Positions 311 to 24,221 of a stretch of 64,000 bases of DNA are shown in pieces. The notes below the pieces were generated by a model. The model was not told the DNA's origin and did no database searches. It was given only the letters and a program-made list of their open reading frames with translations. The stretch is from Flavobacterium branchiarum. GTDB lineage: Bacteria; Bacteroidota; Bacteroidia; Flavobacteriales; Flavobacteriaceae. The position numbers and the translations under genes were made by a program. The stretch lies in NCBI RefSeq assembly GCF_030409845.1, contig NZ_JAUFQQ010000005.1:1860001-1924000 (forward strand), written 5' to 3'. The first letter of the stretch is position 1, and every line of letters starts with the position of its first letter.

Positions 311-1444
311 ATGTCTGAAGTATATATTACAAAAGCCGCAAAATATTTGCCAAACGAAGCTGTTACAAATGATGAAATGGAAAGTTATTTGGGACTTATC
401 AATGATGCCGTTTCAAAAGCGAGAAGAATCATTTTACGCAATAACAAAATTGTAAGTCGTTATTACGCAATAGATAAAGAAGGAAAAAGCACGCATAACA
501 ATGCGGAGCTAACCAAAAATGCTATAACACAATTATTTGATAACGATTTCACTCCGCAAGACATGGAAGTTCTTTCATGCGGAACCTCGACACCAGATAT
601 ATTTTTACCATCTCATGCCGCAATGGTTCATGGATTGTTAAAAAACAAATCTGTTGAATTAAACTCCTCATCAGGAGTATGTTGTGCAGGAATGAATTCA
701 TTAAAATATGGTTTCCTTTCTATTCGTTCAGGGAATTCAAAAAATGCAGTTTGTACTGGATCTGAAAAGGTTTCATCATGGTTCCTGTCAGAAAAATACA
801 GTCCTGAAGTTTCTAATTTAAAAAACTTAGAAGAGCTACCTATAATTGCTTTCAAAAAAGATTTTTTAAGATGGATGTTATCTGATGGTTCTGGTGCTTT
901 TTTATTAGAAAATAAACCTAGAGGCCCTATCTCTTTAAAAATAGAATGGATGGAAGCTTTTTCATATGCGTATGAATTAGAAACTTGTATGTATGCTGGA
1001 GGAGAGAAATTAGAAACTGGTGAAATAAAACCTTGGAGCGATTATTCTCCCGAAGAATGGTTAAATCAATCTGTATTTTCTATCAAACAGGATGTGAAAT
1101 TACTAGATCAATTTATCCTAACAAAAGGAGCAGAAAGTATGGGTATTGCAATGAAAAAAAATAACATTACTGCTGATCAAGTTGATTATTTCATACCACA
1201 CGTTTCTTCTCACTTTTTTGTTGAAGGTTTAAAGAAAAGCCTTGAAGAAAATAATGTTGGAATGGCTGATGAAAAATGGTTCATGAATCTTGCTCGTGTT
1301 GGAAACGTAGGTTCTGCATCTATTTATCTTGCTGTTGAGGAATTAATGAATTCTGGAAAATTAAAAGTTGGTGATCGTATTCTTTTATCAGTTCCAGAAA
1401 GTGGAAGATTCTCTTTTGCCTATGCTTATTTAACCGTTTGTTAA
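311..1444 (+). CDS. darB: DarB-like beta-ketoacyl-ACP synthase III (dialkylresorcinol ketosynthase)
   Basis: This 377-residue protein has the thiolase fold of FabH-type ketosynthases. The nucleophile motif SGVCCAGM places the catalytic Cys at residue 125. A His in IPHVSSHF and an Asn in GNVGSAS complete the expected Cys-His-Asn triad. DarB enzymes condense two fatty-acyl-derived thioesters into a cyclohexanedione that is aromatised to a 2,5-dialkylresorcinol, the alcohol half of flexirubin. The gene follows probable darA by 10 bases, and its TAA overlaps the ATG of the next gene (TAATG), so it is translationally coupled. Ordinary FabH is less likely because the gene sits among aryl polyene genes and the protein is longer than housekeeping FabH (about 320 residues). 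Confidence 0.88.
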   Translation: MSEVYITKAAKYLPNEAVTNDEMESYLGLINDAVSKARRIILRNNKIVSRYYAIDKEGKSTHNNAELTKNAITQLFDNDFTPQDMEVLSCGTSTPDIFLPSHAAMVHGLLKNKSVELNSSSGVCCAGMNSLKYGFLSIRSGNSKNAVCTGSEKVSSWFLSEKYSPEVSNLKNLEELPIIAFKKDFLRWMLSDGSGAFLLENKPRGPISLKIEWMEAFSYAYELETCMYAGGEKLETGEIKPWSDYSPEEWLNQSVFSIKQDVKLLDQFILTKGAESMGIAMKKNNITADQVDYFIPHVSSHFFVEGLKKSLEENNVGMADEKWFMNLARVGNVGSASIYLAVEELMNSGKLKVGDRILLSVPESGRFSFAYAYLTVC

Positions 1445-1875
1445 TGGAAAGAACTTTACTCTTAGAAAAAAAAGCTGTCGAAAATTTATTACCACAAAAG
1501 TTCCCTTTTGTAATGGTAGATAAGATGTTGTCATTCAATGAAACATCTTTAGTCTCTGGCTTAAAAATTCAAAGTGAAAATATTTTTTCAGAAAACGGGA
1601 CTTTTCTAGAAGCTGGATTAATAGAACACATGGCACAATCTGTGGCTTTACATACTGGATATGTCTTTTTTTTAAAACAAGAAAAAGCACCTACAGGCTA
1701 TATTGGTTCTATCAAGCAAATTGATATAAAGAAGCTACCAAAAGTTGGCGATGAGATTCAATCGACAATAACAATTCTACAAGAATTTGCTGGAATAACA
1801 CTAGTAGATATTGTTACTACATTAAATAATGAAGAAATCGCAACCGGTCAGATGAAGACCGTTTTAGCCAAATAA
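1444..1875 (+). CDS. FabZ-like hotdog dehydratase subunit lacking the catalytic His
   Basis: This 143-residue single-hotdog protein resembles 3-hydroxyacyl-ACP dehydratases. The helix motif GLIEHMAQS keeps the Glu and the AQ that follow the FabZ active-site Glu. The usual GHFPxxPxxPGV segment is missing and is replaced by a short FSENGTFLEA stretch, so the catalytic His is not visible. I start it at the ATG at 1444, which overlaps the darB stop. A TTG two codons upstream is possible but less natural. The next gene, 8 bases on, is a paralog with the same change. Heterodimeric dehydratases are reported for aryl polyene type II PKS systems, so this is probably one half of such an enzyme. A purely structural role cannot be excluded. 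Confidence 0.75.
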   Translation: MERTLLLEKKAVENLLPQKFPFVMVDKMLSFNETSLVSGLKIQSENIFSENGTFLEAGLIEHMAQSVALHTGYVFFLKQEKAPTGYIGSIKQIDIKKLPKVGDEIQSTITILQEFAGITLVDIVTTLNNEEIATGQMKTVLAK

Positions 1876-1883
1876 TATAGTAA

Positions 1884-2345
1884 ATGGACACTTCAGTAGA
1901 CATACGAAATTATCTTCCACATCGTGAGCCTATGCTCATGGTCGATTTAATTCTTACAATAGATGCCCTAAGTGTAGAAACTGTTTTTTTAATAAAAGAA
2001 GATAATATTTTCGTTGATAAAAACACCTTCATCGAAGCTGGATTAATTGAAAATGTAGCACAAACCTGCTCCTCTATTGTTGCGCAAAAATATTTTGCCA
2101 AAACAGATGAAGAAGAAAATGTGAGTGTAATAGGATTTATCAGTACACTGAAAAATCTTAAAATATATCAATTACCAAAAGTGAATAATAGTATAATTAC
2201 ACGAGCATCCTTGGTTTCAAAATTTGTTGGAGATGATTATACATTATGTACCATGAATTGCGAAAGCTTTCATGGAGAAGTACAACTTATAGAATGCGAG
2301 ATCAATTTGTTTATTCAAAAAACAAATTCGTTAGTAAAAAATTAA
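1884..2345 (+). CDS. Second FabZ-like hotdog protein lacking the catalytic His
   Basis: This 153-residue protein is a paralog of the preceding one. It opens with YLPHREPMLMVD, similar to the KFPFVMVD of its neighbour and to the LPHRxPFLLVD start of FabZ. It carries GLIENVAQTCS where FabZ has its Glu-containing helix. The GHFPxxPxxPGV loop is replaced by FVDKNTFIEA, so the catalytic His is absent here too. It lies 8 bases after its paralog and 60 bases before the next gene. A role in dehydrating beta-hydroxyacyl-ACP during polyene or alkyl chain growth is likely, either as a partner of a His-bearing subunit (candidate: the gene at 13989) or as a non-catalytic scaffold. Substrate assignment is inference. 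Confidence 0.72.
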   Translation: MDTSVDIRNYLPHREPMLMVDLILTIDALSVETVFLIKEDNIFVDKNTFIEAGLIENVAQTCSSIVAQKYFAKTDEEENVSVIGFISTLKNLKIYQLPKVNNSIITRASLVSKFVGDDYTLCTMNCESFHGEVQLIECEINLFIQKTNSLVKN

Positions 2346-2405
2346 TTTTGAATTATTTTTTTGTTCTAACTATTGATGCTTTTAATTTACTCAATTAACT
2401 AATAC

Positions 2406-2810
2406 ATGGAAAAAGAAAAAGTACCACAAGACAATGGTAATCTAACCAAAAACAACATGAAAGAACTTGTATATGCAACCGATGAAAACGGCGATTATAC
2501 AACTGCTTTAAGTACTGGTTGGGAGCCTAAAACTATTGCTCTTTCAAATTCTATTGATGAGATAAATGAGCGTATTGCAGACGCAAAATCACAAGTAAGA
2601 AATGGAGAAGCAAGTCCGATTTGTTACTTTATGGAATTGAACCGAATGGATCTTCTTATTCTTTCCAATTATGTAGGCATGTGGAAATGGCGTATAAAAA
2701 GACATTTTAAACCTGCTATATTTGCAAAATTAAATGACCGTATTTTACAAAAATATGCTGATGCCTTTTCGATATCAGTATCCGAATTAAAAAATTTTAA
2801 AACAGATTAA
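2406..2810 (+). CDS. Small conserved-looking protein of the flexirubin cluster, function unknown
   Basis: I do not recognise a named family for this 134-residue protein. It is soluble-looking, with no signal peptide or membrane segment. The N-terminal 30 residues are polar. A central part (about 45-90) is acidic and probably helical, and the remainder is basic around a WKWRIKRHFK stretch before a helical tail that ends ISVSELKNF. The last segment resembles a DNA-binding or protein-docking helix, but nothing decisive is visible. The stop codon overlaps the start of the BtrH-like gene by one base (TAATG), so the two are probably made together and may interact. Confidence 0.7.
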   Translation: MEKEKVPQDNGNLTKNNMKELVYATDENGDYTTALSTGWEPKTIALSNSIDEINERIADAKSQVRNGEASPICYFMELNRMDLLILSNYVGMWKWRIKRHFKPAIFAKLNDRILQKYADAFSISVSELKNFKTD

Positions 2811-3808
2811 TGCAAACCACTTTTACACATCATCAATCGGCACATTGCGAAAATGGAGTAGCTTCAAATTTGCTGAAAAATAATGGTTTAAACTTAAGTG
2901 AACCTATGGTTTTTGGCATTGGTTCAGGACTCTTTTTCGTATACTTACCTTTTATAAAAGTTAATTATGCTCCTGCGATAAGCTATAGAACATTACCTGG
3001 TCAAATTTTTAGAAGAGTTGCTAATAGGTTGCATTTAAAAATAAAAAGACAAAAATTTTCATCAGTTTCTAAAGCAAACCAAGCTTTAGATGAAAATCTA
3101 AAAAATAATATCCCAACAGGATTACAAGTTGGCGTTTATAATTTAAGTTATTTTCCCGACGAATATCGCTTTCATTTCAATGCTCACAACTTAGTGGTTT
3201 ACGGAAAAACCGATACCGATTATCTTATAAGTGACCCAGTAATGGAAACCGTTACAACACTTACCCATGATGAATTAGACAAGGTTCGTTTTGCTAAAGG
3301 TGCTTTTGCTCCAAAAGGACAAATGTATTATCCTATTCATATTCCAGATAATATTGATTTAAAAAATGCAATCATCAAAGGAATAAAAAACACTTGCCGA
3401 GACATGCTTGCTCCTATGCCAATTATTGGTGTTAAAGGAATCAGATTAGTTTCAGGTAAGATCCGAAAATGGCCACTTCAACACGGAACCAAAAAAGCCA
3501 ATCATTACTTAGCACAAATAGTTCGTATGCAAGAGGAAATTGGAACTGGTGGTGGAGGATTTCGTTTTATATATGCTGCTTTTTTACAGGAAGCTGCTGT
3601 TGTGTTAAATAATGAAGAGTTGAAAGTCTTATCGAAAGAAATGACAAAAATTGGAGATTCATGGCGTGATTTCGCTGTAGAAGCTTCACGAATATACAAA
3701 AACCGAAGCGCCAAAAATGATGCTTATAATACTATTGCTGACCAACTTTTGGACATTGCAAATAGAGAAGAAGTATTTTTTAAGAAACTAAAAAAAGCCA
3801 TTAGCTAA
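2810..3808 (+). CDS. BtrH N-terminal-domain protein, candidate acyl-ACP transferase
   Basis: The N-terminus of this 332-residue protein, with HCENGVASNLL and a Cys at residue 13, matches the papain-like N-terminal domain of BtrH. In butirosin biosynthesis BtrH moves an acyl group from an acyl carrier protein to an aminoglycoside. A His in FNAHNLVVYG and an Asp in YLISDPVM are spaced as expected for a Cys-His-Asp type site. The C-terminal half (about 190-332) is helical and looks like the DUF4872-type region that often follows. It is coupled to the upstream unknown gene and lies 6 bases before an ABC ATPase gene. In this cluster a plausible job is moving an ACP-bound aryl polyene chain to an acceptor, possibly the resorcinol hydroxyl. 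That role is inference from the family. Confidence 0.72.
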   Translation: MQTTFTHHQSAHCENGVASNLLKNNGLNLSEPMVFGIGSGLFFVYLPFIKVNYAPAISYRTLPGQIFRRVANRLHLKIKRQKFSSVSKANQALDENLKNNIPTGLQVGVYNLSYFPDEYRFHFNAHNLVVYGKTDTDYLISDPVMETVTTLTHDELDKVRFAKGAFAPKGQMYYPIHIPDNIDLKNAIIKGIKNTCRDMLAPMPIIGVKGIRLVSGKIRKWPLQHGTKKANHYLAQIVRMQEEIGTGGGGFRFIYAAFLQEAAVVLNNEELKVLSKEMTKIGDSWRDFAVEASRIYKNRSAKNDAYNTIADQLLDIANREEVFFKKLKKAIS

Positions 3809-3814
3809 TATATT

Positions 3815-4567
3815 TTGCATCCTATTATACAAATAACATCGCTATCTAAAAAGTACAAAAATGCAGAAATGTATTCTTTGAACGACTTAACGCTTACCAT
3901 AAACGAAGGTCAAATTTTTGGTTTATTAGGTCCAAATGGAGCTGGAAAAACAACATTAATTTCGATGCTTTGTGGTTTGGTTAAACCTACTTCAGGCTCT
4001 TTTACAATTAATGGCATGGCGTATGCAAATAATGCTACCAAAATAAAACAATTCATAGGTGTTGTTCCTCAAGAATATGCCCTATATCCTACCCTAACAG
4101 CAAGAGAGAATTTACATTATTTCGGTAGCATGTATGGCCTAAAAGGACAGAATTTAAAAGACAAAGTAATCGAAACTTTGGATCTTTTGGGGTTACTTAA
4201 ATTTGCAGACAAACGCATCGAAACCTTTTCTGGAGGAATGAAAAGAAGAATTAATTTAATTGCTGGAATATTACACAATCCTAAAATTATATTTCTAGAT
4301 GAACCAACAGTTGGTGTTGATGTACAATCAAAAAATGCTATTATTGATTATCTAAAACACTTAAACAAAAACGGAACAACAATTATTTATACTTCACATC
4401 ATTTATCTGAAGCACAAGATTTTTGTACAGATATTGCTATTCTTGACCAAGGTAAAATCTATGCTCAAGGCACTCCTTCTGGATTAATTTCAAATACACA
4501 AAACGCACAAAATCTTGAAGACGTTTTTATTTCATTAACTGGTAAAGAACTAAGAGATGATATATAA
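3815..4567 (+). CDS. ABC transporter ATP-binding protein of the pigment cluster
   Basis: This is a 250-residue cytoplasmic ATPase. Walker A is GPNGAGKTT (residues 39-47), the signature is FSGGMKR (138-144), Walker B is IIFLDE (158-163), and the switch His lies in SHHLSEA. The start is a TTG (MHPII), since no ATG lies in frame before the Walker A region except one after conserved sequence. The permease gene overlaps its 3' end by 11 bases, so the two form one exporter of the ABC-2 class. The domain order and the CcmA/NatA-like sequence fit export of a lipid or pigment precursor across the inner membrane. The actual cargo is not shown by sequence. Confidence 0.9.
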   Translation: MHPIIQITSLSKKYKNAEMYSLNDLTLTINEGQIFGLLGPNGAGKTTLISMLCGLVKPTSGSFTINGMAYANNATKIKQFIGVVPQEYALYPTLTARENLHYFGSMYGLKGQNLKDKVIETLDLLGLLKFADKRIETFSGGMKRRINLIAGILHNPKIIFLDEPTVGVDVQSKNAIIDYLKHLNKNGTTIIYTSHHLSEAQDFCTDIAILDQGKIYAQGTPSGLISNTQNAQNLEDVFISLTGKELRDDI

Positions 4568-5840
4568 ATTATGGATGTCTGTAGTCAAAGAATTCCTATT
4601 GTTAAAAAGGGATTTAGGAGGATTAATTATTTTATTCGTAATGCCTCTTGTACTTGTTATTACGGTAACTTTAATTCAAGACAGTACATTTAAAACCGTA
4701 AGCGATTCTAAAATCGAAATCCTTTTAGTAAATAACGACAATGGCTCAGTAGCCAAAACAGTTTATGATAATTTACAAAAAAGCAATCTATTTACAGTAG
4801 TAACACAAATCAAAGATATTCCTTTAACAGAAGCTGTCGCTAAAGAAGCTGTTTATAAAGGAAAATACCAATTAGCAATTGTTATTCCTGAAAATCTAAG
4901 TAAAGATTTACAAGAAAAAATAGACCAAAATGTACAAAAAATAGTAAGTAGCATTGGTTTAACTGATACAATTGCTCAAACTGAAACTCCTAAAATAATC
5001 ACCCAAAAAGAAGTTAGATTATACTTTGACCCAGCGGTACAAATGAGTTTCAAAAATGCAGTCATGAACTCCATTGATAAAATGATTTCACAAATAGAAA
5101 CCCATTCTATTTACACTGCTTTTCAAAAACAATTGGGAGAAGGAAGCGCTAATTTTGAACAAAAAAGTTTCATTACTTTCAAGGAAATTATTCCTAGAGT
5201 AAACAATAAAGAAGTATTACCAAATTCAACTCAGCATAACGTTCCTGCATGGACCCTTTTTGCTATGTTTTTTATTGTTATTCCACTTTCGATCAATATT
5301 GTAAAAGAAAAAACACAAGGAACTTTTGTTCGCTTATTAACAAATCCGGTTTCAAATCGTATTGTTATGACAGGTAAAACTATTACATATTCTGTAATTT
5401 GTATGATTCAATTTTACATGATGGTTGGTGTTGCCGTTTTTATATTTCCAGAAATTGGTTTACCATCACTTAATATAGAAGGCCATTTATTTTTAATGAG
5501 CGTTGTTGCTTTATTCTCTGGATTTGCTGCTATTGGTTTCGGAATATTATTAGGAACCGTTGCCAAAACACAAGAGCAATCGGCTCCTTTTGGTGCAACA
5601 AGTGTTATTATTCTAGCTGCAATAGGAGGTGTTTGGGTACCCGTTTTTGCAATGCCAAAAATTATGCAGCTTATCGCCAAGTCTTCACCGATGAACTGGG
5701 GATTAAATGCCTTTTACGATGTATTATTACGTAACGCAACATTTTTAGAAATCATTCCAGAAATAGGTTTATTATTTCTGTTTTTTATAATTACAACAAC
5801 AATTGCCTTAGCATATGATAAGAAGAAAAGAGCAGTATAA
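4557..5840 (+). CDS. ABC-2 type transporter permease of the pigment cluster
   Basis: This 427-residue permease has the standard ABC-2 layout. There is one N-terminal membrane helix (about 22-42), a large extracytoplasmic domain (about 45-225), then five or six helices to the C-terminus (from about 230). The segment PVSNRIVMTGKTI is typical of the cytoplasmic coupling region. It overlaps the ATPase gene by 11 bases at its start and the thioesterase gene by 26 bases at its end, so it sits inside one tightly packed transcript. With the ATPase it probably forms an exporter for flexirubin or its halves. Export of another cluster product is equally open. Confidence 0.88.
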   Translation: MIYKLWMSVVKEFLLLKRDLGGLIILFVMPLVLVITVTLIQDSTFKTVSDSKIEILLVNNDNGSVAKTVYDNLQKSNLFTVVTQIKDIPLTEAVAKEAVYKGKYQLAIVIPENLSKDLQEKIDQNVQKIVSSIGLTDTIAQTETPKIITQKEVRLYFDPAVQMSFKNAVMNSIDKMISQIETHSIYTAFQKQLGEGSANFEQKSFITFKEIIPRVNNKEVLPNSTQHNVPAWTLFAMFFIVIPLSINIVKEKTQGTFVRLLTNPVSNRIVMTGKTITYSVICMIQFYMMVGVAVFIFPEIGLPSLNIEGHLFLMSVVALFSGFAAIGFGILLGTVAKTQEQSAPFGATSVIILAAIGGVWVPVFAMPKIMQLIAKSSPMNWGLNAFYDVLLRNATFLEIIPEIGLLFLFFIITTTIALAYDKKKRAV

Positions 5841-6264
5841 CGAAGCTATTGCATTAACAGTTACTGAAGAGGTTAGAATACGCTTTAACGAAACCGATGC
5901 CCTCGGAATTGTTTGGCATGGCTATTATATAACCTATTTTGAAGATGGTCGTGAAGCTTTCGGACGCAAACATGGGATTACCTACCTTGATGTCGCTGCT
6001 AGTGGATACACCACTCCAATCGTAAAATCAACTTGTGAGCATAAATTGTCTTTGCGCTATGGCGATGTCATTCGTGTAGAAACAAGTATTGTAGATACGC
6101 CCGCAGCAAAAATAATTTATAGATTTAAAATTTATAATACCAGTAATGAAATTGTCTGTACAGGCGAAACGGTACAGGTATTTTTAAATAAAGAAGGAAA
6201 TTTAATGCTTACTAATCCTCCATTTTACGAAGAATGGAAACGAAAAGTTGGTCTTTTAAAATAA
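5815..6264 (+). CDS. 4HBT-type acyl-CoA/ACP thioesterase
   Basis: This 149-residue hotdog thioesterase has the motif NETDALGIVWHGYY. The Asp at residue 28 is the catalytic Asp of the 4-hydroxybenzoyl-CoA thioesterase family, and the following W-H-G-Y-Y aligns with its substrate loop. Such enzymes in aryl polyene and flexirubin clusters probably free or proofread chains stalled on the carrier protein. The start codon lies inside the permease gene (26-base overlap), and the stop overlaps the next ATG as TAATG. A 4-hydroxycinnamoyl or polyene thioester is a reasonable substrate guess because of the cluster context, but specificity cannot be read from sequence. Confidence 0.85.
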   Translation: MIRRKEQYNEAIALTVTEEVRIRFNETDALGIVWHGYYITYFEDGREAFGRKHGITYLDVAASGYTTPIVKSTCEHKLSLRYGDVIRVETSIVDTPAAKIIYRFKIYNTSNEIVCTGETVQVFLNKEGNLMLTNPPFYEEWKRKVGLLK

Positions 6265-7403
6265 TGAGAAGAGCCGTTTATATAAACCAAACCAATTGTA
6301 TCACTCCCTTAGGATTTGATGTTCCGTCGAACATTGAGGCTATTGTTTGTGGTGAATCTGGCATTCAGTTGCATGAAGATGTATCTTTAATGCCTAATCC
6401 TTTTTATGCTTCGATTATAAATGAAGAAAAATTAAATGCTGCTTTCGCAAAGATTAGTTCTGAAACTAACTATTCGAGATTAGAAAAAATGATGATTTTG
6501 GCTTTAGAACCAATCATCAAAAATTCTGAAGTAGATTTAAATTCAAAAACTGCCTTTATACTTTCGACAACAAAAGGAAATGTAACTGCTTTAAAAAATG
6601 ATTCTCCCGAGAGTTTTCATAATGCTCATTTAAATGTCTTGGCACAAAATGTAGCAGCCTTTTTCGATTTTAAAACGCAACCTATCGTAGTTTCTAATGC
6701 TTGTGTATCAGGAATTTTGGCCGTTTCGGTTGCCAAAAGAATAATACAAAGTGAACTATATGACAACGTTTTTATCGTTGCTGGTGATGAAGTTTCAGAA
6801 TTTGTTTTGTCTGGTTTTAATGCATTTCAAGCAATGAGTAGTTTGCCTTGCAAGCCTTATTCCGCAAACAGAACTGGTGTAAGTCTGGGTGAAGCTACTG
6901 CAGCTGTTTTAGTTTCAGCAGAATTAAAAAATGCAAAAATAAAAATAGTCGGAGATAGTTCTATAAACGATGCGAATCATATATCGGGTCCTTCAAGAAC
7001 AGGCGAAGGTTTATTCAGAAGTATACAAAACGCCTTGAACGAAGCACAAATAAAACCGGAGCATATTGATTATATTTCGGCACACGGAACTGCAACTCCT
7101 TTTAATGACGAGATGGAAGCTATTGCTTTCAACCGATTAGAGATGGGAACGGTTCCTGTAAATAGTTTGAAAGGTTTTTACGGGCATACATTGGGTGCTT
7201 CAGGATTATTAGAAACAGTAATTTCAATTGAATCTGTCCTTCGTGATACACTTTTTATTTCCTTAGGTTTTGATGAAATGGGAGTAACCCAACCAATTAA
7301 TGTCATTGAAAAAAATGAAAAGAAAAACATTGATACTTTTCTAAAAACAGCCTCTGGTTTCGGAGGTTGCAATACAGCAGTGATTTTTGAAAAAGTAAAA
7401 TAA
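6264..7403 (+). CDS. Beta-ketoacyl-ACP synthase (KAS I/II type), catalytic
   Basis: This 379-residue ketosynthase carries the full Cys-His-His set: SNACVSG with Cys147, SAHGTATPFND, and a second His in FYGHTLGASG preceded by the conserved Lys of NSLKG. An in-frame ATG 30 bases upstream exists, but the start at 6264 overlaps the thioesterase stop (TAATG) and begins directly with the family N-terminus MRRAVYINQT. It extends an ACP-bound chain by decarboxylative condensation with malonyl-ACP. The next gene is a short ketosynthase-like protein, so the two may act as a ketosynthase and partner pair. This is one of two catalytic KAS enzymes in the cluster besides DarB. Confidence 0.9.
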   Translation: MRRAVYINQTNCITPLGFDVPSNIEAIVCGESGIQLHEDVSLMPNPFYASIINEEKLNAAFAKISSETNYSRLEKMMILALEPIIKNSEVDLNSKTAFILSTTKGNVTALKNDSPESFHNAHLNVLAQNVAAFFDFKTQPIVVSNACVSGILAVSVAKRIIQSELYDNVFIVAGDEVSEFVLSGFNAFQAMSSLPCKPYSANRTGVSLGEATAAVLVSAELKNAKIKIVGDSSINDANHISGPSRTGEGLFRSIQNALNEAQIKPEHIDYISAHGTATPFNDEMEAIAFNRLEMGTVPVNSLKGFYGHTLGASGLLETVISIESVLRDTLFISLGFDEMGVTQPINVIEKNEKKNIDTFLKTASGFGGCNTAVIFEKVK

Positions 7404-8035
7404 TGACTCCAAACAAAACATACATACAATCCTATTGCTCAATTGAAAACAACGAAATTGTTTTGAACGGAACTACTATTTTCAAAATAGAGCCAACCAA
7501 TTTTGCAGACTTTTCGAAACAAGCGTACCGCAATTTTGAAATAAGTTATCCTAAATTTTTCAAAATGGATTCTTTAAGTAAACTAGCCTTTTTAGGAGCC
7601 GAATTACTTTTGAGATCAAACCCAAGCGATAGCGAACTAGCAGATGAAATAGAAAACAATACAGCCTTGGTTTTAGCTAATAAATCCTCAAGTCTTGATA
7701 CTGATGTAAAATATCAGGAATCTATATCCGATAAGGAGGATTATTACCCAAGTCCAGCCGTTTTTGTTTATACTTTGCCAAATATTTGCTTAGGAGAAAT
7801 TAGTATCCGTCATCAACTAAAAAGTGAAAATTCTTTTTTTATATTTGACGCCTTCAATCCTGAATTTATAAGTAACTACGCCAATATACTTTTGCAGACT
7901 AATAAAGCAGAAACTGTACTTTGCGGATGGGTGGAGTTTTTCAATGAAGAATATAAAGCTTTTCTTTGTCTGGTTGGTAAAGAAGAGAATCAAAAATACC
8001 AAAACGAAACGATAGAAACATTATATAACAAATAA
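7403..8035 (+). CDS. Short ketosynthase-like protein without visible catalytic residues
   Basis: This 210-residue protein looks like the N-terminal half of a ketosynthase. Residues of about 60-150 contain segments such as FLGAELLLRS, TALVLANKSSSLDTD and PAVFVYTLPNICLGEISIRH, which fit the KAS core. Where the active Cys would lie it reads SENSFFIFDA, with no Cys, and the C-terminal His-bearing half is missing altogether. Its start overlaps the preceding KAS stop by one base (TAATG), and it ends 2 bases before the carrier protein gene. A maintained frame and tight coupling argue against decay. It may serve as a non-catalytic partner of the preceding KAS, like a reduced chain-length factor. The function is not established by sequence. 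Confidence 0.7.
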   Translation: MTPNKTYIQSYCSIENNEIVLNGTTIFKIEPTNFADFSKQAYRNFEISYPKFFKMDSLSKLAFLGAELLLRSNPSDSELADEIENNTALVLANKSSSLDTDVKYQESISDKEDYYPSPAVFVYTLPNICLGEISIRHQLKSENSFFIFDAFNPEFISNYANILLQTNKAETVLCGWVEFFNEEYKAFLCLVGKEENQKYQNETIETLYNK

Positions 8036-8037
8036 CC

Positions 8038-8295
8038 ATGGACGCATTAAAATTAGAATTAAAAAATAAAATTATTACTGTATTAAATCTTGAAGATATT
8101 ACTCTTGAAGACATTAACGATAATGACCCTCTGTTTGGAGATGGTTTAGGTTTGGACTCTATCGATGCTTTAGAATTAATCGTTATTCTAGACAAAGATT
8201 ACGGAATTAAATTAGTTGACCCGAAAGAAGGTAAAGTAATTTTCCAATCAATCGAATCAATGGCTGCTTATATCCAGGCAAACAGAACTAAATAA
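8038..8295 (+). CDS. Acyl carrier protein
   Basis: This is an 85-residue acidic four-helix carrier protein. The phosphopantetheine site is GLGLDSIDALEL, with Ser41 as the attachment residue, at the start of helix II as in all ACPs. It carries the growing polyene or starter chain as a thioester and is served by the ketosynthases, dehydratases and thioesterase in the same operon. It follows the short KAS-like gene by 2 bases. A 107-base gap, the longest in the operon, comes after it. A phosphopantetheinyl transferase is not seen in the window, so it must lie upstream or elsewhere in the genome. Confidence 0.93.
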   Translation: MDALKLELKNKIITVLNLEDITLEDINDNDPLFGDGLGLDSIDALELIVILDKDYGIKLVDPKEGKVIFQSIESMAAYIQANRTK

Positions 8296-8310
8296 ACTTC
8301 TTAGACTTAG

Positions 8311-8364
8311 TTAGACTGCTTAGATAAGAGTATGGACTAAAATTTAATAATCTAGGCAGTCTAA
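8311..8364 (+). repeat. Imperfect 14-bp inverted repeat in the longest operon gap
   Basis: The arms TTAGACTGCTTAGA (8311-8324) and TCTAGGCAGTCTAA (8351-8364) pair with one mismatch around a 26-base loop, between the ACP gene and the next ketosynthase. The gap is also full of short TTAGAC and AGTCTAA words. No T-run follows, so it is not a plain terminator. It could set mRNA processing or stability between ACP and downstream genes, or it may be a degenerate intergenic repeat typical of flavobacteria. Confidence 0.6.
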
Positions 8365-8402
8365 TCAAGTTAAATAATCTAAAAATAAAAGTAGTCTAAA
8401 AA

Positions 8403-9605
8403 ATGGCAAAAGGAGTAGCTATAACTGGTATGGGAATAATATCTTCAATCGGAAATTCGGTCGAAGAAAATTATTTTTCATTAATAAATAACAAGGTTGC
8501 AATTACGACTATCGAGAATATTTCGACAATTCATGCCGATCTTATTAAAGTTGGTGAAATAAAGAAAACCAATGCTGAGTTAATCGCTCAATTACAACTC
8601 GACGAAGAAAATAACTTTTCAAGAACTGCTTTACTTGGTGCAATAGCGGCCAAAGAAGCTGTTGCAAATGCGAAAATTACATCAATTAACGAATATAAAA
8701 CAGGATTAATTTCGGCAACTAGTGTTGGTGGAATGGATATGACTGAGAGATATTATTATGATTATTTAGAAAATCCCGAAGTAAGAAAATATATTATTAG
8801 TCATAGTTGTGGAGATGTAGCTCAAAAAATTGCTGACGAAATTGGATTAAAAGGCATGGTAACTACAATAAGTACAGCTTGTTCTTCGGCAGCAAATGCA
8901 ATTATGCTTGGCGCAAGATTAATCAAATCTGGAAAACTAGACCGAGTTATTGTTGGTGGAACCGATGCTTTGGCAAAATTTACGATCAATGGTTTTAAAA
9001 CTTTAATGATCTTATCTGATGGTTATAATAAACCTTTTGATGACGAACGTAAAGGATTAAATCTGGGTGAAGCTGCTGCATTCTTAGTTTTGGAATCTGA
9101 TGAAATTATAAAAAAAGAAAACAAAAATGTACTTGCTCGCGTTTCAGGTTACGGTAACGCTAATGATGCTTTTCATCAAACTGCTTCCTCCGAAAATGGT
9201 GACGGTGCTTACCTTGCTATGAAAAAAGCATTTGATGTTGCTGCTTTAGATCCAAGTAAAATCGATTATATCAATGTTCATGGAACAGCAACTCCTAATA
9301 ATGATTTATCCGAAGGAAGAGCAATTCTTAGAGTTTATAAAGAAAACCCTGTTCCAGATTTTAGTTCTACTAAACCTTTTACAGGTCATACTCTTGCTGC
9401 CGCTGCTGCTATTGAAGCGGTTTATAGTGTCCTTGCAATTCAGAACAATGTTGTTTTTCCAAGTTTAAATTTTGAGACTCCAATGCAGGAGTTTAGTATA
9501 ACACCACAAACAACTTTAAAACATAAAAATATCGAACACGTATTATCAAATTCTTTTGGTTTTGGTGGTAACTGTTCTACACTTATATTTTCTAAAAACG
9601 AATGA
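8403..9605 (+). CDS. Beta-ketoacyl-ACP synthase (FabF-like), catalytic half of a KS/CLF pair
   Basis: This 400-residue FabF-type ketosynthase is complete: STACSSA with Cys160, NVHGTATPNND and FTGHTLAAAAA supply the Cys-His-His residues, and the SFGFGGNCS loop near the C-terminus is typical. The following gene overlaps by 4 bases and encodes a ketosynthase relative without the Cys. The two therefore look like the KS-alpha and chain-length-factor arrangement of type II polyketide synthases. In aryl polyene systems such a pair builds the conjugated chain on an aromatic starter. The 107-base gap before it contains an inverted repeat, so its expression may be adjusted separately from the genes upstream. 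Confidence 0.92.
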   Translation: MAKGVAITGMGIISSIGNSVEENYFSLINNKVAITTIENISTIHADLIKVGEIKKTNAELIAQLQLDEENNFSRTALLGAIAAKEAVANAKITSINEYKTGLISATSVGGMDMTERYYYDYLENPEVRKYIISHSCGDVAQKIADEIGLKGMVTTISTACSSAANAIMLGARLIKSGKLDRVIVGGTDALAKFTINGFKTLMILSDGYNKPFDDERKGLNLGEAAAFLVLESDEIIKKENKNVLARVSGYGNANDAFHQTASSENGDGAYLAMKKAFDVAALDPSKIDYINVHGTATPNNDLSEGRAILRVYKENPVPDFSSTKPFTGHTLAAAAAIEAVYSVLAIQNNVVFPSLNFETPMQEFSITPQTTLKHKNIEHVLSNSFGFGGNCSTLIFSKNE

Positions 9606-10672
9606 GAAAAACATATATAAATGGTACAGGTTGTCTTTCAGCTCAAAAAACATTTGATACTGTTTTTTTGGAAGAAGCTGAATGGAATAATAATGACAAT
9701 GTCTTATTTTTAAAGAAACCTAATTACAAAGATTTTATTTCTCCTATTGCAAGCCGAAGAATGGCTAATGGGATCAAAAACGGAATTGTAGCTTCGGCAT
9801 ATGCCCTAAAAGAAGCAAACATTGACAATATTGATGCTATTATTACAGGAACAGGAATGGGTTGCATTGAAGATTCTGAGAAATTCTTAAAAGCAATCAT
9901 CGATAATAACGAGGAGTTCTTAACCCCTACCGCTTTTATTCAATCAACACACAATACAGTTGGAGCACAGATTGCGCTTACATTACAATGCAAAGGATAT
10001 AATTTTACTTATGTAAATGGCGCTATTTCTTTTGAGTCGGCACTTTTAGATGCCAAAATGCAAATTGATGAAGACGAAGCCAATTCAGTATTAGTGGGTG
10101 GCGTTGATGAAAATGGTGATTATACTATATCTCTTTTTAAATTAGCAGGATATATAAAAGAAAATAGAAATGAACCTTATCACCTTTTAGAAGAAACCAC
10201 AAAAGGATATATCTATGGCGAAGGAGCTTGTTTTTTTGTTCTAGAAAATGAAAAAAAAGACTCAACTTATGCTCAACTTATAGACGTAGAAATTAAAAAC
10301 ATCCTAAAAGAAGATGAAGTTGAAGCTGAGATTAAGAAATTTTTAAAATTAAATAAATTAGAAATTTCAGATATAGACGCTGTTGTTTTGGGTTATAATG
10401 GTGATATCCAATTTGACTCTTATTATAAAAATTTGGCAGATAATGCTTTCGCAAATACGCCACAGGTTTATTACAAACATTTATCTGGAGAATACAATAC
10501 AGTATCTGCTTTTGGATTATGGGTTGGTTCTAAAATCATTAAAACACAAACAATCCCAGAACTTATTAAAGCTAATTCATTACAAAGGCCAGCCTACAAT
10601 ACAATTTTGCTATACAATCAGTTTAACGGAAAAGACCATAGTTTTACATTAATTTCAAATGATAACGCATAA
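9602..10672 (+). CDS. Chain-length-factor-like ketosynthase, active Cys replaced by Ile
   Basis: This 356-residue member of the ketosynthase fold has no condensing nucleophile. The segment that should hold the Cys reads VNGAISFESAL, with Ile142 at the expected place. The C-terminal part also lacks the HGT and GHT histidine motifs in recognisable form. It starts 4 bases before the end of the catalytic FabF-like gene, which is the classical KS-CLF gene order. It probably forms a heterodimer that sets chain length or primes the chain, as in type II polyketide and aryl polyene synthases. It is not a pseudogene, since the frame is intact and the fold motifs at both ends persist. Confidence 0.82.
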   Translation: MRKTYINGTGCLSAQKTFDTVFLEEAEWNNNDNVLFLKKPNYKDFISPIASRRMANGIKNGIVASAYALKEANIDNIDAIITGTGMGCIEDSEKFLKAIIDNNEEFLTPTAFIQSTHNTVGAQIALTLQCKGYNFTYVNGAISFESALLDAKMQIDEDEANSVLVGGVDENGDYTISLFKLAGYIKENRNEPYHLLEETTKGYIYGEGACFFVLENEKKDSTYAQLIDVEIKNILKEDEVEAEIKKFLKLNKLEISDIDAVVLGYNGDIQFDSYYKNLADNAFANTPQVYYKHLSGEYNTVSAFGLWVGSKIIKTQTIPELIKANSLQRPAYNTILLYNQFNGKDHSFTLISNDNA

Positions 10673-11435
10673 AAAAACTTGTTTGTTTTTTATCATCATA
10701 TTGCTTTTATTGCTTCTTACGAAACTTTATATAGCAATCAATTTTTTGTGGTTTATCGCAATTGGAATAATCTGGTTAAGCATTGTAGCAATAAATTCGT
10801 CACGAATAAAATCGAACTATCATGTAAAGGCATATTGTAATAATCCATCATTAACTGAAAATAAAATCGCATTAACTTTTGATGATGGTCCAAGCGAAAT
10901 CACTTTAGAGGTCCTAGATGTCTTAAAAAATTACGATGTAAAAGCAACCTTTTTTTGCATTGGAAAAAACATAGAGAAACATCCAGAAATTATCGAGCGT
11001 ATTTTATCAGAAGGTCATCAAGTTGGAAATCATTCTTACAGTCATTCTCATTTTTTTGATTTATACAATACTAAAAAAATATTTGAAGAACTAAAAAGAA
11101 CAGATCTGCTTCTTGAAAAATTTACTTCAAGAAAAATACAATTCTTCAGGCCTCCGTATGGCGTAACAACCCCATCAATTCGTAGGGCTTTAAAGTTAAG
11201 CGGACATAAAGTAATTGGCTGGAATATTCGATCACTTGATGGAGGCATTAAAGATCAAGAAGTCATTTACAATCGAATTATAAAACGTGTTTCTCCTGGC
11301 GGAATTGTACTTTTGCATGACACGGCTAAACATTCAGTATTAGTCTTGGAACAGTTTTTGCAATTTTTACAGCAAAACAATTATACCGTAATTTCGGTTG
11401 AAAAACTATTGAATCTTAAAGCATATGAAGACTAA
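10659..11435 (+). CDS. Membrane-anchored polysaccharide deacetylase family protein
   Basis: This 258-residue protein starts with two hydrophobic segments (about 8-48) that anchor it in the inner membrane. A NodB-type domain follows, with TFDDGP (Asp75 and Asp76), NHSYSH (His125 and His129, metal ligands), RPPYG and a late LLHD motif, so all five family motifs are present and it should be catalytically active. Family members remove N- or O-acetyl groups from polysaccharides or small glycosides. Its role in pigment formation is unclear, and it could deacylate an envelope acceptor or the pigment itself. It overlaps the CLF gene by 14 bases and the next gene by 11 bases. Confidence 0.88.
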   Translation: MITHKKTCLFFIIILLLLLLTKLYIAINFLWFIAIGIIWLSIVAINSSRIKSNYHVKAYCNNPSLTENKIALTFDDGPSEITLEVLDVLKNYDVKATFFCIGKNIEKHPEIIERILSEGHQVGNHSYSHSHFFDLYNTKKIFEELKRTDLLLEKFTSRKIQFFRPPYGVTTPSIRRALKLSGHKVIGWNIRSLDGGIKDQEVIYNRIIKRVSPGGIVLLHDTAKHSVLVLEQFLQFLQQNNYTVISVEKLLNLKAYED

Positions 11436-12060
11436 AATTTATTTATTCGCAATACTCTTGAATCTGTTTACCTTGAGTTTGTTTGCTCAGGAGCAAAAAA
11501 TGTCTGATACAGAAATTGCTACTTTTAAACAATCGGTTAATCTGGTTTCCAAAAAAATCAAAACATTAAGTACCGATTTTGTACAATACAAGCATTTAGA
11601 CTTCTTATCAAAAGATATTGAAACATCTGGAAAGATGATTTTTAAAGAACCAAGTCTATTACAATGGCAATACAAAAAACCATATAATTATACTATTGTC
11701 TTTAAAAATGGTAAAATTTTAATTAATGACGAAGGCAAGAAAAGTGTTGTAGATATTGGAAATAGCAAAATCTTTGGTCGAATCAATAAACTTATTGTTG
11801 GTAGTGTAAGTGGCGATATGTTTGATGATAAAGAATTTAGCATTAGTTATTTTAAATCAAAAAACCAGAACATTGCAAAATTCATCCCTAAAGATGCAAC
11901 TTTAAAAAAATACATTAAACAAATAGAACTGACTTTCGATAAAGAAGACGCAACTGTTGTTCAAGTAAAATTACTTGAATCATCTGAAGATTATACCCGA
12001 ATTGTACTTAAAAACAAAGTGATAAATGCAAAAATCGACGACTCCGTTTTTACTAATTAA
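11425..12060 (+). CDS. LolA-like outer-membrane lipoprotein carrier protein
   Basis: This 211-residue periplasmic protein has a clear signal peptide (residues 1-21, ending LFAQ). The body matches LolA-type carriers: LSTDFVQYKHLDFLSKDIETSG, then KEPSLLQWQYKKPYNYTIVFKNGK, the half-barrel that binds acyl chains. LolA normally ferries lipoproteins from the LolCDE complex to the outer membrane. A dedicated copy inside aryl polyene and flexirubin clusters suggests transport of a lipidic pigment through the periplasm. It overlaps the deacetylase-family gene by 11 bases and the lipoprotein gene by 35 bases. Confidence 0.85.
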   Translation: MKTKIYLFAILLNLFTLSLFAQEQKMSDTEIATFKQSVNLVSKKIKTLSTDFVQYKHLDFLSKDIETSGKMIFKEPSLLQWQYKKPYNYTIVFKNGKILINDEGKKSVVDIGNSKIFGRINKLIVGSVSGDMFDDKEFSISYFKSKNQNIAKFIPKDATLKKYIKQIELTFDKEDATVVQVKLLESSEDYTRIVLKNKVINAKIDDSVFTN

Positions 12061-12664
12061 TTGCTTTTTAGTTTTTTTTCTGTTTTCTTGTGGTCAAAAA
12101 ATTACAAAAAATTTCACACCAAAACCATTAGAAAAAACATCTTATGAAGCACCGTATTTTTCTAATCCCGAAATTGATTATGTCTATAAAGCAAACATAA
12201 CAGTTTATGGTCATGAATTATCTGGAATATTTATTGCAAAAAAAATAAATGATACTACCCATCGCGTTGTATTTACTACTGAATTTGGTAATAAATTATT
12301 AGACTTTGAAATTTCGGAAACTAACTTTAAAGTTAATTCCATTGTATCTGAATTGGACCGAAAAATACTTATTTCGACCTTGAAAAAGGATTTTCGAATA
12401 CTTCTAAAAAAGAACTATTTGATTAATGAACAATTTGAAAATCAAACAAATACAATCTACCAATCAAAAGATGGTAAACAGTATAATTTTATATTTTTAT
12501 CAAAAGAGAATCAAAAATTAGAAAAACTAGTATATGCTTCGCAAACAAAAGAAAAAATAACTATTAGTTTTAGTTCAGAAAACAATATTTTTGCAGAGAA
12601 AATTGAGATTTTACATCAAAATATAAAGTTAAAAATAGAATTGAATTATTTTAAACCTGAATAA
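12026..12664 (+). CDS. Predicted lipoprotein of the pigment cluster
   Basis: This 212-residue protein has a lipoprotein signal peptide. The hydrophobic stretch ends FLFSC, so Cys22 would be lipidated. The mature part is beta-rich with alternating charged and hydrophobic residues and no membrane helix, and I recognise no catalytic motif. The gene overlaps the LolA-like gene by 35 bases, which suggests that carrier and lipoprotein act together, much as LolA hands cargo to the outer-membrane lipoprotein LolB. A LolB-like acceptor role is therefore a reasonable but unproven idea. Confidence 0.72.
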   Translation: MQKSTTPFLLINCFLVFFLFSCGQKITKNFTPKPLEKTSYEAPYFSNPEIDYVYKANITVYGHELSGIFIAKKINDTTHRVVFTTEFGNKLLDFEISETNFKVNSIVSELDRKILISTLKKDFRILLKKNYLINEQFENQTNTIYQSKDGKQYNFIFLSKENQKLEKLVYASQTKEKITISFSSENNIFAEKIEILHQNIKLKIELNYFKPE

Positions 12665-12696
12665 GGAAATCCAATTATTACCAACAAAAAAATAAA

Positions 12697-13305
12697 ATGA
12701 ATTATAAGCACTTATTATTTTCAATACTTGCCTGTGTAACCATTATTCAAGTACAAGCGCAAGTAACTTTTAAACCCGGTTTAAGAGCAGGTTTGAATTT
12801 TTCAACTTTTACAGAAACACATTCTTCTTATAAAACTGGTTTTTATGTGGGAGGTTTTGGTGAGATAAAATTAGCCAAAAGATACACTTTACAACCCGAA
12901 ATCACCTATACTGAACAAGGTTCAAACAATGTAACTGAAACGTATTATGATTATTTTACTAATACTGAAAAAATAGAACGTAAAGATCTAAAGTTAAATT
13001 ACTTGTCAACTGCTGTAATGAATAAATTTACTTTTGGAAATGGTTTTCAATTACAAGTTGGCCCTACATTAGATTTTGTTTTAAATGATAATTTGAAACG
13101 AAGATTTTCTGATGTCGATTTAGCAATTGTTGCTGGAATTGGATATAAATTACCTTCTGGTTTAACATTAGAAGCTCGTGTTAAAAAGGGTATTATTGAT
13201 GTACTTGACGACAACTATTCTGCAAATAATAATGACAATTTATTTGGCGATTATAATACAAATTTTTTGTTTCAGCTTGGAGCTTCATACTCTTTTGGAA
13301 AATAA
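12697..13305 (+). CDS. Outer-membrane beta-barrel protein (PorT-type fold), first paralog
   Basis: This 202-residue exported protein has a signal peptide (1-21, ending VQAQ) followed by alternating amphipathic strands and ends in SYSFGK. The start of the mature part, TFKPGLRAGLNFST, is the signature of small Bacteroidota outer-membrane beta-barrels. The next gene encodes a paralog with the same layout, 27 bases downstream. Eight strands are likely from length. In the cluster it may be a pore or anchor for the pigment in the outer membrane, but such barrels are abundant in this phylum and have varied roles. Confidence 0.8.
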   Translation: MNYKHLLFSILACVTIIQVQAQVTFKPGLRAGLNFSTFTETHSSYKTGFYVGGFGEIKLAKRYTLQPEITYTEQGSNNVTETYYDYFTNTEKIERKDLKLNYLSTAVMNKFTFGNGFQLQVGPTLDFVLNDNLKRRFSDVDLAIVAGIGYKLPSGLTLEARVKKGIIDVLDDNYSANNNDNLFGDYNTNFLFQLGASYSFGK

Positions 13306-13332
13306 TCCTTTTAATACTATTTTAAATAAATT

Positions 13333-13977
13333 ATGAGTAAAAAAATATCTTTAATTCTCGTTTTCGTTCTTATAACAGTAATAAAAACGCAAGCTCAAGT
13401 CACTTTTAAACCAGGAATACAAGCTGGAATTAACATTTCTAAATTGACTAATTCAAATCTTGGAAACAAAACCGATTTTTATATTGGGGGATTTGGAGCT
13501 TTAAAGTTTTCAAAGTTCTACACACTTCAACCTGAATTAACGTATTCAAGACAAGGAGCCAAAGGAAATGAAAAAATGGGTAGTACCAGTTATTATGACG
13601 CTACAACAAATAATTACATTACAATTTACAATCAAGGCAACGTAGATGTATCTTTGCACTATATTTCGGCTATTACGATTAATAAGCTGAATTTTAATGA
13701 TAACTTTTATGTCGTAGCAGGTCCTTTTTTCGATATACTTGTTGCTGATAGTTTTAAAGTAGAACCAAAAGGAAACGAAAGAAGTTTTACCAAAGGTGGG
13801 GATATCGATTTAGGGATTATTGGAGGATTAGGATACAGCTTGAAAAATGGAGTTTCATTTGAAGCTAGAGTCAAAAAAGGCTTAACAAATTCATATAGCA
13901 ATGATTATTCATATGGAAACGATAATACAAATTTAGTATTCCAATTTGGTGCAACTTATACATTTAAGACAAAATAA
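13333..13977 (+). CDS. Outer-membrane beta-barrel protein, second paralog
   Basis: This 214-residue exported barrel protein has a signal peptide of about 22 residues ending TQAQ, then TFKPGIQAGINISK, nearly the same as in the preceding gene. Both contain GGFG near residue 50 and a YTLQPE(I/L)TY strand, and both end in a strand with F-Q-(L/F)-G-A-(S/T)-Y. The pair thus comes from a tandem duplication with substantial divergence in the loops. The gene ends 11 bases before the hotdog gene at 13989. Specific function is not visible. Confidence 0.8.
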   Translation: MSKKISLILVFVLITVIKTQAQVTFKPGIQAGINISKLTNSNLGNKTDFYIGGFGALKFSKFYTLQPELTYSRQGAKGNEKMGSTSYYDATTNNYITIYNQGNVDVSLHYISAITINKLNFNDNFYVVAGPFFDILVADSFKVEPKGNERSFTKGGDIDLGIIGGLGYSLKNGVSFEARVKKGLTNSYSNDYSYGNDNTNLVFQFGATYTFKTK

Positions 13978-13988
13978 AAAATACAATT

Positions 13989-14360
13989 ATGGTTTTAAAA
14001 GACTTTTATAAAGTACTTTCATTAGAAAACCCAAGTGGTTCAAAATACGAAGCTGTTATCATGGTGAATGACAAACATGATGTTTTCAAAGGTCATTTTC
14101 CAGATAATCCAATAATGCCCGGAGTATGTATGATACAGATTATAAAAGAAATTTCGGAAACAATTACCAAAAGTAGCTTAATGATGCAAACGCTTAGTAA
14201 TGTTAAATTCATGGCTTTAATTAACCCTGAAGTTACTCCTGAATTACGTTTAGAATTGGATATTACCACAACCGAAGATGATTTAATAAAGGTAAAAAAC
14301 ACAACTTATTTTAACGAAACTGTTGCTTTAAAATTAAGTAACGTTTATAAAAAAGCTTAA
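13989..14360 (+). CDS. FabZ-like hotdog protein with catalytic His but Glu replaced by Gln
   Basis: This 123-residue protein is the most FabZ-like hotdog protein in the window. It has the loop FKGHFPDNPIMPGVCM with the catalytic His. The residue that in FabZ is the catalytic Glu of the following helix reads Gln here (MIQIIKEI). The two hotdog proteins at 1444 and 1884 show the reverse pattern, with the Glu kept and the His lost. FabZ active sites are built across a dimer interface with His from one chain and Glu from the other, so this protein may complete an active site with one of them. The gene lies 2 bases before the next one. The dehydratase role is likely, and the partner choice is inference. 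Confidence 0.8.
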   Translation: MVLKDFYKVLSLENPSGSKYEAVIMVNDKHDVFKGHFPDNPIMPGVCMIQIIKEISETITKSSLMMQTLSNVKFMALINPEVTPELRLELDITTTEDDLIKVKNTTYFNETVALKLSNVYKKA

Positions 14361-22929: not shown

Positions 22930-24221
22930 TGATTCCAGAAATAGAAAAAGGTTCTTTAGAAGAAATTAAAAATTTTCAAGAGCAAAAATTAGTGGAGTTT
23001 TTGGCATATATAAGTCAGAAATCCCCTTTTTATAAAAACCTTTTTGAGAAAAATAAAATTGATGTTTCTAAGATTAAAACACTAGAAGATCTACAACTTT
23101 TACCTGTAACCACCAAAGAAGATCTTCAGACTAATAATGATGATTTTTTATGTGTTCCAATTACAAAAATTATTGATTTCGCAACTACCTCTGGAACTTT
23201 AGGAGATCCGGTAACTTTTGGTTTAACTGATTCTGATTTGGATAGATTAGCTTATAATGAAGCTATTTCTTTTGATTGTGCAGGAATTAAAGAAGGCGAT
23301 ATTGTACAACTTATGACCACAATTGATCGTAAGTTTATGGCTGGATTGGCTTATTTTTTAGGATTGCGAAAATTAAAAGTAGGTGTAATTCGTGTTGGCG
23401 CAGGAATACCCGAACTACAATGGGATTCTATCTTAAAATACAACCCTTCCTATTTAATAACGGTTCCTTCATTTTTATTAAAGTTGATTGAATATGCCGA
23501 AAACCATAATATCGATTATAACAATTCGAGCATAAAAGGTGCAATTTGTATTGGAGAGCCACTTAGAAACCAAGATTTTTCGATGAATATTTTGTCTAAA
23601 AAAATAACTGACAAATGGAACATTAAATTATATTCTACTTATGCTTCTACCGAAATGAGCACTGCTTTTACGGAATGTGAACATGAAAATGGAGGACATC
23701 ATCATCCTGAATTAATAATTGTAGAAGTACTTGATGAAGATAACAATCCTGTAAAAAATGGTGAAGTTGGTGAACTAACATTTACTACTTTAGGTATCGA
23801 AGCCATGCCTCTATTGCGTTTTAAAACAGGAGATATCGTTCAGTTACACGACACTCCATGTGCCTGTGGAAGAAATACATTACGTGTAGGTCCCGTTGTT
23901 GGACGCAAAAAGCAAATGATAAAATATAAAGGAACAACCCTTTATCCCCCTGCAATGAATGATGTTTTAAGTGATTTTGATGCTATCGAAAATCATATCA
24001 TCGAGATATTTACCAATGATTTAGGAACGGATGAAATTTTGATTAAAATTGCAGTGAAGAATCCAACGGATGAATTATTACATGAAATAAAAGATCATTT
24101 TAGAGCCAAATTAAGAGTAACTCCAAAAATAGAATTCACCTCAAAAGAAATATTAAATCCATTAGTTTTTAACCCGATGAGTCGTAAACCAATTCGGTTT
24201 TTTGATAATCGAGTTAGCTAA
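22929..24221 (+). CDS. Phenylacetate-CoA ligase-like adenylate-forming enzyme
   Basis: This 430-residue member of the PaaK branch of adenylating enzymes has the phosphate-binding loop TTSGTLGDPVTFG, the acyl-AMP motif STYASTEMSTAF, and the hinge and ribose-binding segment RFKTGDIVQLHD. Cysteines in CACGR recall the structural Cys cluster of some PaaK proteins. It activates an aromatic or acyl acid as an adenylate and then a thioester. In flexirubin formation the obvious acid is 4-hydroxycinnamate made by a tyrosine ammonia-lyase, a gene not in this window. It is the last gene of the + strand operon, coupled to the C45 gene by a one-base overlap and followed by a 228-base gap. Confidence 0.83.
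   Translation: MIPEIEKGSLEEIKNFQEQKLVEFLAYISQKSPFYKNLFEKNKIDVSKIKTLEDLQLLPVTTKEDLQTNNDDFLCVPITKIIDFATTSGTLGDPVTFGLTDSDLDRLAYNEAISFDCAGIKEGDIVQLMTTIDRKFMAGLAYFLGLRKLKVGVIRVGAGIPELQWDSILKYNPSYLITVPSFLLKLIEYAENHNIDYNNSSIKGAICIGEPLRNQDFSMNILSKKITDKWNIKLYSTYASTEMSTAFTECEHENGGHHHPELIIVEVLDEDNNPVKNGEVGELTFTTLGIEAMPLLRFKTGDIVQLHDTPCACGRNTLRVGPVVGRKKQMIKYKGTTLYPPAMNDVLSDFDAIENHIIEIFTNDLGTDEILIKIAVKNPTDELLHEIKDHFRAKLRVTPKIEFTSKEILNPLVFNPMSRKPIRFFDNRVS

Follow-up and report, generated by a model that had tools for sequence, protein, structure and literature searches.

A His/Glu dyad divided over three hotdog proteins suggests a split polyene dehydratase in the flexirubin gene cluster of Flavobacterium branchiarum

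The DNA analysed here, referred to as the window, is a stretch of 64,000 nucleotides from Flavobacterium branchiarum (positions 1,860,001 to 1,924,000 of NZ_JAUFQQ010000005.1), which sits on contig C5 of the 5.0 Mb genome (G000). It carries much of a flexirubin gene cluster, including three genes for small hotdog proteins related to the dehydratase FabZ. Two of them, which we call GluA and GluB, have the Glu of the FabZ catalytic dyad, and the third, the His chain, has the His. We consider it probable that the three proteins are subunits of the polyene dehydratase of the cluster, in which both Glu chains partner the single His chain. Their genes are the following:

1444..1875, + strand: GluA (P0001), ApeP-like hotdog protein, with Glu61 and without a His loop
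1884..2345, + strand: GluB (P0002), second ApeP-like hotdog protein and paralogue of GluA, with Glu56 and without a His loop
13989..14360, + strand: His chain (P0003), ApeI-like hotdog protein, with His36 in a GHFP motif and Gln50 in the acid position

In FabZ, the catalytic His comes from the loop preceding the Glu helix and is supplied by the other chain of the dimer. Every chain of this homodimeric enzyme has both the His and the Glu, a combination absent from all three window proteins. The motif regions, aligned using the canonical FabZ domain of the same genome as the reference, are IFSENGTFLEAGLIEHMAQ for GluA, IFVDKNTFIEAGLIENVAQ for GluB and VFKGHFPDNPIMPGVCMIQIIKE for the His chain. 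Compared with the FabZ domain, the GHFP segment is missing from GluA and GluB, in which the loop is shortened, and the Glu is retained where the central helix begins; in the His chain, GHFP is present and a Gln occupies the FabZ Glu column. The coordinates and residues of all three proteins were confirmed, and with them the pattern of two Glu-only chains and one His chain with Gln that the first-pass annotation of this DNA had described.

This complementary pattern is conserved in the relatives of the three proteins. Among close orthologues (the query and the best 119 or 120 of 1233, 2332 and 2667 matches, all close relatives), the Glu is present in 121/121 sequences of the GluA set and 120/120 of the GluB set, and both His36 and Gln50 are present in 120/120 of the His-chain set. 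A wider collection of unique chains was taken from the genomes of the order and class samples, from which open reading frames (ORFs) longer than 300 amino acids and scores below 35 bits were dropped. Here, all 113 Glu-type chains (32 GluA, 32 GluB, 47 from genomes with a single Glu chain and two from genome G024) retain the Glu, and all 75 His-type chains retain the His. The acid column of the His-type chains contains Gln in 65 sequences, Glu in five, Arg in three, Lys in two and Asp in none. The division of His and Glu between the two types of chain is far beyond chance. Five His chains with Glu in the acid column, and thus with a complete dyad, were observed in L078, L095, L102, L106 and L131; their genomes also encode a Glu chain.

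The two types of chain also occur together. In the class sample of 295 genomes, 57 encode a Glu chain and 58 a His chain; both are present in 53, a Glu chain only in four, a His chain only in five and neither in 233. These counts were copied by hand from search lists, of which the His list ends near an E value of 3e-5, and LpxC-FabZ fusions were excluded. The Fisher p value of this co-occurrence is 1.3e-47 with kinship ignored, and it overstates the case because the sampled genomes are related by descent. Eight of the nine unpaired genomes are less than 90% complete. In the order sample of 196 genomes, all 37 with a Glu chain have a His chain; two Glu chains are encoded in 34 of them and one in three, and each of the 34 has one His chain.

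The closest solved heterocomplex is PDB entry 6QSR, entitled 'The Dehydratase Heterocomplex ApeI:P from Xenorhabdus doucetiae'. Both types of chain match it by sequence profile (best PDB match of the His-chain profile, 6qsr_A, E 3.2e-11; match of the Glu-chain profile to 6qsr_B, E 9.7e-8), and the Glu chains also match it by fold. As in the window, the ApeI/ApeP pair of E. coli consists of a chain with the His loop and a Glu chain without it: ApeI has GHF, which is absent from ApeP, whose ALELMAQ segment includes the Glu. For Acinetobacter, the passages available of a 2021 paper describe a single active site for ApeI and ApeP, proposed by sequence comparison (PMC8041823). The likeness thus covers two hotdog families, one giving the His-loop chain and the other the Glu chain, within a polyene-making type II synthase. 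The proposal of the first-pass annotation that the active dehydratase is assembled from a His chain and a Glu chain gains support from the complementary dyad, the co-occurrence and this heterocomplex, and we regard a split heterodimer as very likely. Given 6QSR and the published work on ApeI/ApeP, this proposal extends a known design and is not new.

The cluster that holds the three chains is a flexirubin gene cluster, in which FlxA, FlxB, DarB, DarG, DarH and FlxY all exceed their NCBIfam cut-offs. FlxA, a tyrosine ammonia-lyase, and FlxB, a reductase, are encoded upstream of the window (on L004), and the other four are encoded inside it. The closest relatives that bear a name are Flavobacterium. 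Besides the hotdog genes, the features of the cluster in the window are the following:

311..1444, + strand: darB, dialkylresorcinol ketosynthase, directly 5' of GluA (NCBIfam NF053539, 664.5 bits against a cut-off of 550)
2406..2810, + strand: darG (NCBIfam NF053545, flexirubin_DarG, over the cut-off)
2810..3808, + strand: darH, BtrH-related acyltransferase (NCBIfam NF053550, over the cut-off)
6234..10672, + strand: polyene synthase, with ketosynthase/chain-length-factor-like proteins and an acyl carrier protein (ACP) encoded at 6234-7403, 7403-8035, 8038-8295, 8403-9605 and 9602-10672; the ACP and chain-length-factor-like labels come from reading the sequence and from weak family matches
22929..24221, + strand: flxY, putative acyl-CoA ligase (NCBIfam NF053551, 747.5 bits against a cut-off of 520)

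The genes are arranged in the order darB, GluA, GluB, darG, darH, an ABC transporter, a thioesterase, the ketosynthases and ACP, LolA and others, followed by the His chain, a glycosyltransferase, an MMPL protein and, further on, FlxY; labels without a family match rest on our reading of the sequence. The darB and GluA genes overlap by a single base, the last of the darB stop codon being the first of the GluA start codon. Two neighbouring similar proteins (12697-13305 and 13333-13977), encoded after the lipoprotein gene and before the His chain, read like small outer-membrane barrels, a putative assignment; in several relatives, L052 and L053 among them, the lipoprotein gene is followed directly by the His chain.

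With regard to the mechanism, the His chain and a Glu chain would form a pair like that of 6QSR, and a 3-hydroxyacyl-ACP made by the ketosynthase and FlxB would enter at the interface. A His and a Glu contributed by different chains would remove water by the dehydration mechanism established for FabZ; the double bond would be retained, and repetition of the cycle would yield the polyene. Each dimer would have one working site, located at the interface, and no chain would work as a homodimer. In the commonest layout, a single Glu chain is present; in two families of the order the Glu chain exists as an old GluA/GluB pair, which would most likely provide His:GluA and His:GluB dimers within the same polyene pathway, perhaps acting on short and long chains. 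Since only one His gene accompanies the two Glu chains, two alternative dimers are the simplest reading, and if the heterodimer is indeed split, both Glu chains likely participate. That dimers form here, that both Glu chains are partners of the His chain and that they divide the labour in some way is what we infer from these observations. In a more specific version, which we hold tentatively and at slightly less than even chances, one His chain alternates between the two Glu chains in a single polyene assembly line, giving either two dehydratases or a mixed hexamer containing both. The shared His half-site would then be combined with different Glu half-sites, for instance for early and late chain lengths, and neither Glu chain could be bypassed, since the shared His chain no longer has the acid.

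The location of GluA and GluB between darB and darG is compatible with another explanation, put forward in the first-pass annotation, in which one Glu chain serves the polyene and the other the alkylresorcinol branch. The distribution of DarB speaks against it. The class sample contains 48 genomes with DarB, a count that omits four further genomes matching only in open frames longer than 600 amino acids. A Glu chain is present in 47 of these, with two Glu chains in seven genomes and one in 40, so a second chain is not needed for making both halves of the molecule, and the two-branch model was rejected as a general explanation. We then placed by hand the Glu gene of 48 genomes with a single Glu chain, leaving out the fragments of G050 and G216; 39 of them have DarB, G050 being the 40th such genome. 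In agreement with a resorcinol role, the single Glu gene lies no more than 2.5 kb from darB in 27 of the 39 genomes (in four of these, it is also no more than 25 kb from the His gene); it lies near the His gene instead in seven and near neither in five. However, in the remaining 23 of the 27 darB-adjacent cases the Glu gene has no His gene closer than 25 kb: the His gene is on another contig in 19, far off on the same contig in two and undetected in two, and contig breaks leave most Glu-His distances uncertain.

No second Glu chain was found in 18 stretches of about 10 kb on each side of the His gene from DarB genomes, only the His chain itself, in searches with both profiles, filters off and matches above 12 bits; thioesterase-type hotdogs were not counted, and KS2 was present in 10 of the 18, so parts of some clusters lay outside the stretches. 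These stretches were chosen from the 28 DarB genomes in which no Glu gene was located less than 25 kb from the His gene, namely 14 of the 23 mentioned above and four of the five with the Glu gene near neither. Moreover, of 10 genomes with a Glu chain and without DarB, eight pair one Glu gene with one His gene no more than 25 kb apart, and no His chain was found in the other two; the cluster stretches of G379 and G400 each contain a single Glu chain together with a single His chain, and darB was not matched there. A single Glu chain is therefore found in resorcinol makers and in darB-less polyene clusters alike, and a place beside darB alone proves no tie to the resorcinol, which, according to the passages available of PMC3992019, is derived from fatty-acid intermediates. 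Altogether, we consider the assignment of the two Glu chains to separate branches very unlikely.

The GluA/GluB pair itself has a stable layout. The order darB, GluA, GluB was found in 30/30 further two-Glu loci, the window and G024 not counted, and darG comes next in 27 of these 30, the other three stretches giving no darG match. Both Glu chains are also encoded in all 80 Flavobacterium-group loci obtained by a DarB search of genome contigs (the best 80 of 193 loci, with the His gene outside those stretches). Two Glu chains occur in G024 too, which lies outside the order. In the tree, GluA forms one clade (support 100/99) and GluB another (98/100), and since each contains members of both families, GluA and GluB each predate the family split. 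A single common clade of GluA and GluB is not rejected (approximately unbiased test, p-AU 0.088, or 0.46 with the two G024 chains), so a tandem duplication in the lineage and an older origin are both possible. In many public records, GluB orthologues are labelled 'ABC transporter permease', apparently by mistake.

The fact that a single Glu chain suffices in 40 of the 47 genomes that encode DarB together with a Glu chain invites the explanation that only His:GluA, or only His:GluB, is catalytic, and that the other Glu chain is non-catalytic or regulatory, for example in a GluA:GluB dimer or as a ketosynthase scaffold. The features of GluB point in both directions. Its stem in the tree is long (1.27 changes per column), its nonsynonymous divergence (dN) exceeds that of GluA in 7/7 comparisons, and it lacks His residues that are present in GluA. 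On the other hand, GluB retains P16, E56, A59 and Q60, which are the four invariant positions in a 49-sequence alignment, and has an Asn following the Glu, as do 37/47 single Glu chains, so that it does not look degenerate. It is under purifying selection, with dN/dS ratios of 0.07-0.14 in six of seven comparisons; synonymous divergence (dS) was saturated in one of the seven, and these ratios are rough, with dS above 1 in most comparisons and synonymous sites near saturation. A single catalytic pair accompanied by a non-catalytic Glu chain appears unlikely to us.

The His residues in question, H62 (beside the Glu) and H70, which the first-pass annotation did not mention, are each present in 31/32 unique GluA and in 0/32 unique GluB, and both are present in 80/80 Flavobacterium-group GluA loci. 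Such conservation would fit a self-sufficient GluA in which H62 or H70 replaces the missing His. Against this, GluB and most single Glu chains occur with a His chain yet lack these residues (among the single Glu chains, a His is found one position after the Glu in 9/47 and nine positions after it in 5/47). In addition, both residues sit on the Glu helix (residues 56-77) in the structural model of GluA; in FabZ, by contrast, the His is contributed by the other chain, from the loop that precedes this helix. We regard a self-sufficient GluA as the least credible of the explanations considered.

Several observations weigh against a split dehydratase with two Glu partners. The parallel with ApeI:ApeP is inexact, as the Gln in the acid column of the window His chain corresponds to an Asp in the E. 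coli and Xenorhabdus ApeI proteins. With respect to the protein families, PF22817.2 (ApeP-like) matches neither GluA nor GluB and matches 7 of the 49 members of alignment A1 weakly, and PF22818.2 (ApeI) scores 22.1 bits on the His chain, below its cut-off of 28.5; version PF22817.3 is listed for GluB and for orthologues of GluA, and PF22818.3 for the His chain. FabZ entries outrank 6qsr_B among the matches of the Glu-chain profile, and the modelled folds of GluA and GluB are equally near to homodimeric FabZ and to ApeP. The 5/75 His chains with Glu in the acid column could work alone, and H62 and H70 of GluA could have a role of their own. Two nearly complete genomes depart from the pairing: G054 (class sample, 98% complete) has a Glu chain and no detected His chain, and G317 (order sample, 96% complete) has a His chain alone. 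Finally, covariation of divergence failed to single out the His chain as the partner. The partial correlations across 26 genomes (His-GluA, 0.52; His-GluB, 0.45; GluA-GluB given His, 0.00) are equalled by those of control genes in 25 genomes (GluB-GT2, 0.55; His-GT2, 0.71), which makes this analysis uninformative.

Other known systems help to place the arrangement. HadAB and HadBC of Mycobacterium tuberculosis share HadB between two partners and have differing condensing-enzyme preferences (PMC3245277, as far as its available passages go); there the catalytic centre is believed to reside in HadB, whereas here the dyad is divided between chains and the presumed shared subunit is the His chain. 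A similar comparison can be made with E. coli, whose cluster has one ApeP according to a table of PMC8253772, compared with two Glu chains in the window cluster. For flexirubin itself, FlxF and FlxS of Chitinophaga pinensis have been named dehydratases of the polyene pathway (PMC3992019), and the passages available of that paper give no split active site; FlxF and FlxS may be the counterparts of a Glu chain and of the His chain. Of the first-pass suggestion that a three-way exchange would be new, the exchange of partners has a precedent in HadAB/HadBC, and what stands is the set of two Glu chains to one His chain, for which no report was found in the literature searched, parts of which were available as passages. 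Neither was a flexirubin dehydratase heterodimer reported in that literature, as judged by titles and the beginnings of abstracts, with few subscription papers covered. The chemistry of a split dehydratase is itself not new; the part absent from the literature searched is the conserved second Glu chain. With these results, the ApeI:ApeP type of split dehydratase, known from the aryl polyenes of Proteobacteria, is extended to flexirubins of a different class, and the division of His and Glu is kept in every sampled chain. They also provide a naturally occurring 2:1 set of half-site donors, with which the timing of dehydrations by a type II polyketide synthase could be studied.

A last explanation is that the housekeeping LpxC-FabZ performs the dehydration and that the three hotdogs are involved in isomerisation, polyene protection or chain release. 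The LpxC-FabZ of this genome (L006) does have an intact dyad, and there is a precedent for reassignment in the hotdog protein AmcE, originally taken for a dehydratase, which is a decarboxylase according to the passages available of PMC10698177. Nevertheless, each half of the dyad is kept in all sampled chains and the two halves travel together, and ApeH/ApeP, in which ApeI is fused to ApeH, serves as dehydratase in vitro (available passages of PMC8041823). We find this explanation highly improbable. A canonical dehydratase in the upstream part of the cluster, which the first-pass annotation had named as evidence against a split enzyme, was sought as well: no further dehydratase-type hotdog was found between FlxA and FlxY by reading the ORFs and running the profiles on L004 and L005. 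Across the whole genome, PF07977 matches only LpxC-FabZ, the His chain and a FabZ-like protein of another cluster. A second small polyketide cluster, with labels assigned by sequence reading, was observed on contig C3 (L007:8639-12244); it combines a ketosynthase and a type III polyketide synthase-like protein with a phosphopantetheinyl-transferase-like protein and a FabZ-like hotdog that has both GHF and Glu.

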